Part shown: one piece after another, positions 33,951 through 36,217 of the stretch
Numbering within the stretch: position 1 is the first letter of the stretch
How the letters are laid out: each line of letters opens with the position of its first letter
Source of the DNA: Pseudomonadota bacterium
GTDB taxonomy: Bacteria; Pseudomonadota; Gammaproteobacteria; Burkholderiales; Rhodocyclaceae
DNA: 40,893 bases
Assembly: GCA_029780075.1 (NCBI GenBank)
Contig: JAKOZI010000324.1
Span: forward strand, 1-40,893
Direction: 5' to 3'
Translations under genes and position numbers: made by a program
The notes under the pieces: generated by a model
What the model saw: the letters and a program-made list of their open reading frames with translations, nothing else
The model's database searches: none
What the model was told of the DNA's origin: nothing

Positions 33951-35117
33951 CTAGAGACCGGCCGCCGATCGCAGGGCAGCCGCCTTGTCGGTGACTTCCC
34001 AGGTGAACTCGGGTTCGTCACGACCGAAGTGCCCGTAGGCGGCGGTCTTGCGATAAATCGGGCGCAACAGATCGAGCGACTGGATGATGCCTTTCGGACG
34101 CAGGTCGAAGTGCTTGCCGATCAGGTCGACGATGATTTCGTCGCTGACCTTGCCGGTGCCGAAAGTATTGACCATCAGCGACACCGGCCGGGCAACGCCG
34201 ATGGCGTACGCCACCTGCACTTCGCAGCGTTCGGCGAGACCGGCGGCGACGACGTTCTTGGCCACGTAGCGGGCGGCGTAGGCGGCCGAGCGATCGACTT
34301 TCGACGGGTCCTTGCCCGAGAACGCCCCGCCACCGTGCCTTGCGGCGCCGCCGTAAGTATCGACGATGATCTTGCGGCCGGTCAGCCCGCAGTCGCCGTG
34401 CGGACCGCCGACGACGAAACGCCCGGTCGGGTTGACCAGATAGCGGGTGTTGCCGGTCAGCAGTTCCTTCGGAACGACCGGTTTGATGACCTCCTCGATC
34501 ACCGCTTCCGAGATCTGCGCGTGCGAGACTTCGGGATCGTGCTGTGTCGAAACGACGATGGTGTCCACCGACTGCGGCCGACCGTCGACATAGCGGACGG
34601 TAAGCTGGCTCTTCGCATCCGGGCGCAGCCACGGCAGGCGGCCATCGCGGCGAACCTCGGCCTGACGCTCCATGATGCGATGCGCGTAGTGGATCGGCAG
34701 CGGCATCAGCGACGCGGTCTCGTTGCACGCGTAACCGAACATCAGCCCCTGGTCGCCGGCGCCCTGATCGAGATCCAGGCCCTGCCCCTCATTGACACCT
34801 TGCGCGATATCCGGCGACTGGCGGTTGATTGCTGTCAGAATGGCGCAGCTCTTGTAGTCGAAGCCGATATCGGAATTGTCGTAGCCGATACGGCGGACCG
34901 CGTCCTGTGCGATTTCGCGATAATTGATATGTGCCCTGGTGGTGATTTCGCCGGAGATGACGACCAGACCCGTGGACACCAGCGTTTCGCAGGCGACCCG
35001 CGCGGGCGGATCCTCGGCGAGAATGGCGTCAAGGATGGCATCGGAAATCTGGTCGGCGACCTTGTCCGGATGACCTTCGGAAACCGATTCCGAAGTGAAG
35101 AGATACTCTTTGCTCAC
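33951..35117 (-). CDS. metK: S-adenosylmethionine synthase
   Basis: A 388-aa cytoplasmic enzyme making SAM from methionine and ATP. Family signatures are all present: [16 protein letters not shown] near the N-terminus, [12 protein letters not shown] near residue 120 and the phosphate loop [19 protein letters not shown] around 265. Full length for the family. The start is GTG at 35117 with GGAG 10 bases upstream. The gene has its own strong promoter (35265-35294) and a 140-base leader with a terminator-like hairpin ending about 17 bases before the start, so it is probably regulated by attenuation, perhaps by its own product. Confidence 0.97.
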
Positions 35118-35130
35118 GCTGCGTCTGCTC

Positions 35131-35259
35131 CAATAAAAAAACCCCGAAACGGCGGCGTTGCCGGCTCCGGGGTTCGAGCAGACGACGCTTTAGCAGTATT
35201 TGGTGGCCGATTTCACGGCTCCTTCCGCCCTGCAAGTTGTCCTGATTAACTCGGCGGAT
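35131..35259 (-). promoter_or_regulatory. Structured metK leader RNA, candidate SAM-responsive attenuator (SAM-II/SAM-V-like pseudoknot)
   Basis: From the predicted start at about 35259 the RNA can form stem P1 (UCCGCC 35258-35253 with GGCGGA 35229-35224). Its loop begins GAGUUAAUC and ends in UUGCAG. GCAG in that loop (35233-35230) can pair with CUGC (35196-35193), which is followed directly by UAAAGC; GAC (35241-35239) can pair with GUC (35186-35184). This H-type pseudoknot with a UAAA segment after the second strand resembles the SAM-II/SAM-V layout, but the connecting segment is longer and holds a 4-bp hairpin (GCCG/CGGC). A 9-bp stem, CGUCUGCUC/GAGCAGACG (35184-35176 with 35130-35122), then encloses the terminator and covers GAG of the metK GGAG. 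All pairings were found by eye. Confidence 0.5.
35134..35174 (-). terminator. Intrinsic-terminator-like hairpin inside the metK leader
   Basis: On the minus strand AACCCCG pairs with CGGGGTT, with a GC-rich inner part that can form a further 4-bp stem, followed by a run of seven T. It lies downstream of the metK promoter and upstream of its start, so it can only act as an attenuator of metK itself. There is no other minus-strand gene upstream whose transcript it could end. Confidence 0.75.
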
Positions 35260-35266
35260 GGATAAT
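35237..35266 (+). promoter_or_regulatory. lpxL: Predicted lpxL promoter
   Basis: TTGTCC at 35237-35242 and GATAAT at 35261-35266 are separated by 18 bases. Transcription would start near 35273, giving a leader of about 75 bases to the GTG at 35348. The -10 box overlaps that of the divergent metK promoter by two bases, so both polymerases cannot sit there together. Confidence 0.55.
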
Positions 35267-35294
35267 TATAGTTTTTCTCCTGCCGGCTGGTCAA
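35265..35294 (-). promoter_or_regulatory. metK: Strong sigma-70 promoter of metK
   Basis: Read on the minus strand, TTGACC (35294-35289) and a consensus TATAAT (35270-35265) are separated by 18 bases. The first purine at the right distance is A at 35259, which puts the 5' end of the RNA one base before stem P1 of the leader. This is the best promoter match I found in the window. Confidence 0.8.
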
Positions 35295-35347
35295 ACCTTC
35301 TTGCAGTCTTCCTTCGCTCCTCTGACGCTTCCTGGAAATCCTCTCGC

Positions 35348-36217
35348 GTGCTCACTCTCTCCCGTCTTCTCAGTCGTCTGCCGCTATCGTGGCTGCATGC
35401 CTTTGGCGCCCTGCTCGGCTGGCTCACCTGGCTACTCTCGCCGACCTACCGCCGGCATCTGCGCGAGAACATGCAGCTCGCGCTGGGGGAAGCCGAGAGC
35501 CGGCGGCTGCGCGCCGCGGCCATCGGCGAAGCCGGCAAGGGCGCGCTCGAACTGACGCGCATCTGGCTGCAGCCGCTCGCCGAAACGGCCGCGCGGGTCG
35601 TCGAGGTCTCGGGCTGGGAACTGGTCGAGGCGGCGGCGCGGCGCGGCAGGGGGATCCTCTACCTGACGCCGCACCTGGGTTGTTTCGAGATCACCGCCCA
35701 GTACCTGTCTACGCACGCCCCGATCACCGTCCTCTACCGGCCGCCCCGGCAGGCCTGGTTGCAGTCGATGATCGAAGCCGGTCGGGCGCGCGCGCAGCTG
35801 CATCTGGCGGCCGCCGATCTGTCGGGCGTACGCAGCCTGCTCAAGGCACTCAAGCGCGGCGAGGCGGTTGGCATGCTGCCCGACCAGGCGCCGAAGACGG
35901 GCGAAGGTCGCTGGCTCGACTTCTTCGGCAAACCCGCCTATACCATGACCCTCGCCGCGCGCCTGGTCGACAGCGGCGCCAGCGTGATCATGGTCTGGGC
36001 GGAACGCCTGCCCGCGGGGCGCGGCTATCATTTCCATCTGCAGGAACCGACCCGACCGATCCGCGGCACAATCGAAGAACGCGCGCAACAGATCAATCAC
36101 GAGATCGAGCACCTGATCCGCCAGTGTCCCAGCCAGTATCTGTGGGGCTACAACCGCTACAAGGGGCGCCGCGGCAGCGAAGCGCCGCCGCTGCCGAACG
36201 CCGGCGGACCGGCGTGA
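35348..36217 (+). CDS. lpxL: Lipid A lauroyl acyltransferase-like protein (LpxL/HtrB family)
   Basis: A 289-aa inner-membrane acyltransferase that adds a secondary acyl chain to lipid A. An N-terminal hydrophobic helix (about 12-32; S-W-L-H-A-F-G-A-L-L-G-W-L-T) anchors it. The catalytic HX4E motif is H-L-G-C-F-E in L-T-P-H-L-G-C-F-E-I-T, followed by V-L-Y-R-P-P and L-P-D-Q-A-P-K-T-G-E-G. The frame is open from an ATG at 35258, but that codon lies upstream of the predicted transcription start and inside the metK leader DNA; the GTG at 35348 gives the usual family length. Divergent metK-lpxL order is common in betaproteobacteria. Confidence 0.88.
   Translation: MLTLSRLLSRLPLSWLHAFGALLGWLTWLLSPTYRRHLRENMQLALGEAESRRLRAAAIGEAGKGALELTRIWLQPLAETAARVVEVSGWELVEAAARRGRGILYLTPHLGCFEITAQYLSTHAPITVLYRPPRQAWLQSMIEAGRARAQLHLAAADLSGVRSLLKALKRGEAVGMLPDQAPKTGEGRWLDFFGKPAYTMTLAARLVDSGASVIMVWAERLPAGRGYHFHLQEPTRPIRGTIEERAQQINHEIEHLIRQCPSQYLWGYNRYKGRRGSEAPPLPNAGGPA

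Follow-up and report, generated by a model that had tools for sequence, protein, structure and literature searches.

The window, by which is meant the whole stretch of 40,893 nt that was analysed, carries on its minus strand a gene for SAM synthetase, metK, preceded by a leader with a promoter, a predicted pseudoknot and a terminator. The initial annotation had supposed a betaproteobacterial host, and this is supported. The features, in the direction of transcription, are as follows (SD, Shine-Dalgarno sequence).

35265..35294, minus strand: promoter, TTGACC (35294-35289), an 18-nt spacer and TATAAT (35270-35265); 11 of 12 consensus bases
35253..35258, minus strand: P1 5' strand, UCCGCC; partner 35224-35229, with double-sided changes at five of the six pairs
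35246..35252, minus strand: third strand, GAGUUAA; G35250 lies at the SAM-II U10 site, and U35249 and U35248 are the equivalents of SAM-II U11 and U12
35239..35241, minus strand: P2a 5' strand, GAC; partner 35184-35186, nearly invariant
35230..35235, minus strand: P2b 5' strand, UUGCAG; partners 35196-35193 and 35191-35190, the outer two pairs covarying
35224..35229, minus strand: P1 3' strand, GGCGGA; pairing seen in both covariation alignments
35206..35219, minus strand: P3-like hairpin GCCG...CGGC of the connecting segment; relatives' inserts fold better than shuffles
35189..35196, minus strand: P2b 3' strand and pocket, CUGCUAAA; CUGC (35196-35193) and AA (35191-35190), with U35192 (equivalent of U44) left out of the P2b pairing and A35189 as the equivalent of A47
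35184..35186, minus strand: P2a 3' strand, GUC; in common with hairpin H
35155..35188, minus strand: predicted hairpin H, GCGU.GUC.GCUC (35188-35176) with GAGC.GGC.ACGC (35167-35155); -15.9 kcal/mol
35176..35184, minus strand: S1 5' strand, CGUCUGCUC (anti-SD); pairs with 35122-35130 in the predicted fold
35135..35174, minus strand: terminator, AACCCCG...CGGGGUU, with a run of seven U at 35141-35135; from sequence and folding
35122..35131, minus strand: SD, GGAG (35131-35128), and S1 3' strand, GAGCAGACG (35130-35122)
33951..35117, minus strand: metK, SAM synthetase, GTG start; Pfam PF00438, PF02772 and PF02773

Much of this had been described in the initial annotation and can be read directly in the sequence: the near-consensus promoter, the 5' stem (P1, CCGCC/GGCGG), the complementary segments GCAG/CUGC and GAC/GUC, and UAAA. 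Promoter-like sites number two in 35080-35400, one per strand, compared with 0.1 expected. The seven-U terminator nested in a 9-bp stem over the metK SD was likewise borne out by sequence and by folding, as the MFE fold of the leader (35188-35118) is the terminator arm CCCCG/CGGGG inside the 9-bp stem S1 over the SD, at -40.5 kcal/mol. A simple terminator pattern scan of 35080-35400 found none (0.3 expected), leaving the arm and its seven U unflagged.

The element is common among relatives. A search for metK gave 62 places in 60 of 61 genomes, and in 39 of the 50 places examined the element lies upstream; it is absent upstream of the other 11, two of which are second metK copies (genomes G028 and G035). 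The relatives searched included 28 genomes of the same genus, counting the source genome, a fragmented assembly of 346 contigs, and all 28 metK loci of this genus carry it. A pattern search with the 5' half, in which GACAACUUGC and UUAA were fixed and G or T was allowed at position 10, gave at least 119 loci. Among those listed, the 3' aptamer half is present in 73 and missing in 46, metK lies behind in 69, and both occur together in 68; Herbaspirillum, Achromobacter, Cupriavidus, Caballeronia, Paraburkholderia, Burkholderia, Massilia, Undibacterium, Pandoraea, Bordetella and Oxalobacter are represented among these 68. Distinct metK-type aptamers could be parsed in 109 cases, with GCUAAAG in 108 and G at position 10 in 108, the pattern having admitted G or T there. 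Elements found with a model built solely from metK leaders of what is called type B below (R1) are independent of the pattern but not of R1, itself built from it; in a set of 61 of them, all 61 have GCUAAAG and U at the two positions after position 10, which is G in 54 and T in seven.

The connecting segment, with its own hairpin, had been put forward as the mark of a variant or a new class, and in this role it did not hold up: it defines no class because its length varies among relatives from under 10 to over 60 nt. Inserts of at least 16 nt fold better than mononucleotide shuffles (p<=0.05) in 26 of 27 cases from the same genus and 37 of 49 from other relatives. Three metK aptamers (L233, L235, L237) have an extra stretch between the third strand and GACAA(C/A)UUGC, with a small hairpin by eye, and this stretch marks a second tolerated insertion site. 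At one locus of Accumulibacter sp. Gx485_bin129 (L121:6552) the 5' half lies before metK, GCUAAAG is not found within 110 nt and metK is farther off; this aptamer copy is, to judge by its letters, degenerate or interrupted.

The pairings of the pseudoknot are supported by covariation. Alignment A1 holds 64 of the 109 distinct parsed aptamers, and its 15 scored pairs are 97.5% standard, with four rows (L043, L065, L092 and L107) whose P1 is misaligned by one base counted against pairing. Double-sided changes occur at seven pairs, in 95 cells (4.3 and 29.6 in shuffles), the observed covariation score was reached by none of 500 shuffles, and pairing drops to 37-54% when the partner strand is slid out of place. 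A second alignment of 67 model hits (63 distinct), fitted to P1 and not to P2, is 96.7% standard, with double-sided changes at nine pairs in 103 cells (4.1 and 29.5 in shuffles); it overlaps A1, as both contain the leader from the window as well as ten further loci (L041-L056), and six of its rows are of type A. Chance pairing was ruled out, as covariation exceeds shuffles in both alignments. The covariation anticipated in homologous metK leaders was found in P1 and in the outer two P2b pairs, which carry the signal, whereas P2a is nearly invariant and hardly covaries in either alignment. One of the outer two P2b pairs, 30/87, is unpaired in 10 of the 63 rows of the second alignment. All four rows with GUUC instead of GUC have a G before GAC, which would lengthen the helix; a G before GAC is also found in many rows with plain GUC.

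At threshold, the Rfam models reported no family anywhere in the window, and within 35000-35400, at E up to 10, there were eight matches, none of them to SAM-II or SAM-V (the latter presumably RF01826). An alignment to SAM/SAH (RF01727) at 35126-35158 reached 15.6 bits, compared with a threshold of 40, and covers the terminator and SD, outside the aptamer. The long-loop SAM-II model (RF01726) gave no match at the metK site in eight same-genus genomes at E up to 10, and none of the eight had one over the cut-off. Membership of SAM-V, SAM/SAH or SAM-II long loops was rejected on these scores. The ordinary SAM-II model (RF00521, SAM_alpha; gathering threshold 36 bits) aligns below threshold to the aptamer in two of 20 relatives' loci, at 21.4 and 20.4 bits.

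An element much closer to the Rfam model lies in the same genome before a metX-like gene, at 35.4 bits by RF00521, and over-threshold SAM-II elements were found in three of eight same-genus genomes. R1 also recovers this element before the metX-like gene, with a score of 33.3 bits and an E value of 1.4e-5. The layout of the metX element is GGCGCC-GAUUUGA-ACGAUCAG-CUUGCG-GGCGCC...AAAUACGGCUAAAGCG, and that of the metK element is UCCGCC-GAGUUAA-UCAGGACAA-CUUGCAG-GGCGGA...AAAUACUGCUAAAGCG. Between the variant and the new class that the initial annotation had offered, it is the variant that stands, the new class being unsupported because the metK element grades into ordinary SAM-II elements.

In SAM-II, the positions U10, U11, U12, U20, U21, G22, C23, G42, C43, U44, A45, A46 and A47 are given as completely conserved in the available text of PMC3764141. 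The metK RNA keeps 12 of these 13 listed pocket positions, the exception being U10, which is G35250. The pseudoknot first described as of SAM-II/SAM-V type is, on covariation and on these 12 positions, of the SAM-II type, and the SAM-V alternative fell with the lack of any match at E up to 10. In SAM-V (PMC6061858, available part), the adenine of SAM pairs with a U, and the residue corresponding to U10 forms a hydrogen bond with this U; by analogy, a G at position 10 could donate a hydrogen bond too. Judged by comparison of sequences, P1 and P2 make up an H-type fold that is conserved and has the pocket of SAM-II apart from the G at position 10, and we read the aptamer as a divergent SAM-II subclass, type B, with the signature GNGUUAA..GACAACUUGC..GCUAAAGCGUC and G for U10.

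Elements of both types are widely distributed. R1 matches (E<=0.01) occur in at least 174 of 250 genomes of the order, a count that covers both types and includes some genomes with a type A element alone, and, at E<=0.001, in 74 of 274 genomes of the class, again with both types counted. After removal of duplicates, 176 of 179 fetched matches were kept. Position 10 in type A (CAGCUUGC and like) is T in 72, G in three and C in one; in type B (CAACUUGC and like) it is G in 65, T in 27, A in two and unparsed in two; four of the 176 belong to neither type. MetK is the sole gene label checked against Pfam; the labels metZ, metX, metH, metF and moxR are our assumption, being taken from sequence motifs used as tblastn references, and the label 'other' includes metK leaders at eight loci where the retrieved sequence did not extend far enough to reveal the gene. 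The 41 elements labelled metZ comprise 39 of type A (T 38, G 1), one of type B with T and one of neither type. The 55 labelled metK comprise type B elements with G (44), with T (7) or unparsed (1), two of type A with T, and one of neither type. G goes with type B yet is, across these sequences, exchangeable with U at the same gene.

This distribution bears on the ligand. Were the G at position 10 and the fixed GAC, AAC and GUC segments to retune the pocket, the same fold might bind something else, such as SAH or another SAM relative; the division between G in 108 of 109 metK-type aptamers and T in 72 of 76 of type A would suit this, as would the U10 without exception in the SAM-II described in the part of PMC3764141 available, and a precedent exists in the spermidine-sensing variants of SAM-I (PMC10853860, as far as available). 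We nevertheless regard another ligand as unlikely, given that type B at metK itself has T in seven cases alongside G in 44, that type A can also carry G, as it does before metZ and metF, that the U pair discriminating SAM from SAH in SAM-V (PMC6061858, in the accessible text) is retained, and that the target gene is SAM synthetase. Because related elements carry U or G at position 10, SAM is the likeliest ligand, one for both types.

The two types also occur together. Tandem pairs were found at 26 loci, 23-240 nt apart on one strand, with type A followed by type B in 24. At loci L195, L197, L211-L213, L215-L220 and L239, and also at L210 and L214, a type A to type B tandem precedes a small protein of roughly 100 aa with MYDC or MFDC at its start, for which no Pfam or NCBIfam family was over the cut-off; in L215 a MatE-type gene follows it. 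Type B also lies before a gene that we take to be of the MoxR-type ATPase kind (L204, L205, L208, L249 and L254, in the last of these behind type A), a target that would not be expected of a SAM switch. In one genome of the class (G530; L257, L301 and L302) there are seven R1 matches, several of them in tandem. Sub-threshold matches to the sRNA family RF02424 (Bp2_287) were seen in 17 of 60 genomes, with none over the cut-off, and at three places (G058:C9:24549-24691, plus strand; G082:C2:112820-112942, minus strand; G063:C5:133082-133265, plus strand; loci L265, L243 and L203) they lie on the strand opposite SAM-II-like elements; RF02424 may be an antisense reading of the metX/metZ SAM-II riboswitch.

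Tandem arrangements are known from earlier work: the available part of PMC9481103 reports 149 tandems of SAM-II with SAM-V and 44 tandem doublets of SAM-II, in some of which a terminator comes first and an RBS platform follows. By analogy, type B may play the part of SAM-V in the tandems seen here. A bolder proposal would treat type B as a separate riboswitch class built on the SAM-II fold, mainly a sensor of the MetK product in Betaproteobacteria and, behind ordinary SAM-II, a second, translation-level partner, with a pocket retuned at position 10 and a different affinity or a non-SAM ligand; this we treat as a minor possibility.

The hairpin H, like the U10-to-G change, goes beyond the initial annotation. 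H is the MFE structure of fragments that begin at 35188, and hence lack the aptamer, with ends at 35155, 35150 or 35146; in fragments reaching 35142 and beyond, the terminator fold wins. H competes with P2a, the terminator and S1 because it uses P2a bases as well as the GCUC whose alternative partner is the SD. Its conservation was examined in 93 leaders taken from 118, after same-genus rows were thinned to six and duplicates and leaders of less than 45 or more than 130 nt were dropped; as these leaders are related, the counts for H and S1 are not independent. The strict H pattern requires a GCGU helix extended by three or more pairs; it is present in 58 of the 93 (18.1 expected from dinucleotide shuffles) and absent in 35, and a looser test gave 71, compared with 37.7 expected. 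As for the 9-bp stem, whose comparison among relatives was proposed at the outset, 48 of the 93 carry a stem of the S1 type (19.1 expected from dinucleotide shuffles). A run of five T precedes the SD in 25 of 93. When leaders were cut before the SD, the MFE fold pairs the two P2a bases downstream in 59 of 93. Free MFE values gave a mean z of -1.93 (39 of 93 at p<0.05), and enforced-pairing folds a mean z of -1.36 (29 of 93 at p<=0.05); an explicit pairing test was used for H because in several leaders, including L001, a tiny hairpin was enough to satisfy the constraint in place of H. Another candidate antiterminator, formed from the P2b 5' strand and a second downstream CUGC, was dropped as short and, by eye, not common to all relatives.

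These features suggest how the leader would switch. At low SAM, the nascent RNA would fold H once 35155 has been made, before the 3' arm of the terminator exists; polymerase would then read on, the SD would stay open, and metK would be transcribed and translated, H being a candidate antiterminator that also occupies the anti-SD strand. With SAM bound, P2 including P2a would be locked, H blocked and the terminator folded, and on read-through RNA S1 would close the SD, such that SAM, the product of MetK, would repress metK. Leaders without a T run would act at translation only. In this mechanism the ON state must be kinetic because H (-15.9) is far less stable than terminator and S1 together (-40.5).

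That S1 and the terminator are the most stable fold without any ligand would also fit a regulatory structure without metabolite sensing of its own, such as a site for a protein (MetK, for instance) or a plain attenuator; this is improbable, as the bases that never vary belong to the SAM-II pocket and would not be required in a plain attenuator. An ON switch, in which ligand binding opens metK expression, could be drawn from the competition of P2a and the ninth S1 pair for C35184. When 35188-35184 were blocked to mimic the bound state, however, the terminator and S1 still formed (-37.0), and an ON switch is very improbable. Counted against OFF control by SAM are the lack of an Rfam match at threshold, the G at U10, the barely covarying P2a, the P2b pair 30/87 left open in some rows, the low stability of H beside the OFF fold, the absence of the element at 11 of 50 metK loci and of the strict H pattern in 35 of 93 leaders, and the limitation of the T run to 25 of 93 leaders. 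With these weighed, we consider it likely, from sequence and predicted folds, that the metK leader acts as an OFF riboswitch responding to SAM, with an aptamer of a divergent SAM-II subclass.

No description of the metK element was found in the literature searched, although an earlier mention in the riboswitch-distribution survey PMC5473149 is possible. In a 2014 survey of methionine regulation in Proteobacteria (PMC4239095), the available portion reports SAM-II in Rhizobiales and Rhodobacterales alone among the genomes that the survey covered. For beta-proteobacteria, the same portion describes a metXZ element that has a terminator and may contain a pseudoknot, and it reports no RNA element for metK. 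As far as comparative analysis can tell, the element is a real, widespread SAM-II variant that goes unreported by Rfam models at threshold, and it is very probably a SAM-sensing OFF switch for metK. It provides a candidate feedback switch for metK across much of the Betaproteobacteria, indicates that the Rfam SAM-II model misses a large subclass, and offers both a natural experiment on position 10 of the SAM-II triplex and a concrete candidate switching hairpin for a SAM-II-type expression platform.

Among known systems, the SAM/SAH riboswitch (RF01727) resembles the metK element in its place before metK and its small pseudoknot, but its match is weak (15.6 bits, threshold 40) and off the aptamer. 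SAM-II long loops (RF01726) share the SAM-II core and have longer loops, but are Bacteroidetes and marine according to the accessible text of PMC2864571, and have no Rfam match at the metK site. The metXZ element of beta-proteobacteria (PMC4239095), compared here by the text description in the part available, also has a pseudoknot followed by a terminator, methionine genes and a betaproteobacterial setting, but was reported before metX and metZ rather than metK; possibly it corresponds to type A of the present analysis. SAM-V is alike in its pseudoknot and pocket (PMC6061858, available part), in a hairpin (P3) between P1 and P2, and in taking second place in SAM-II tandems, as type B does in 24 of 26 tandem loci, but its Rfam model gives no match at E up to 10. 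From SAM-II itself the metK element differs in the G for U10, the fixed GAC/AAC/GUC segments, the variable insert before AAAU, metK as target and a score under the Rfam threshold, but the two have in common P1, P2a, P2b, the third strand and the UUGC...GCUAAA core, along with a promoter close before P1, a terminator behind, and a methionine or SAM gene, here metK, downstream.
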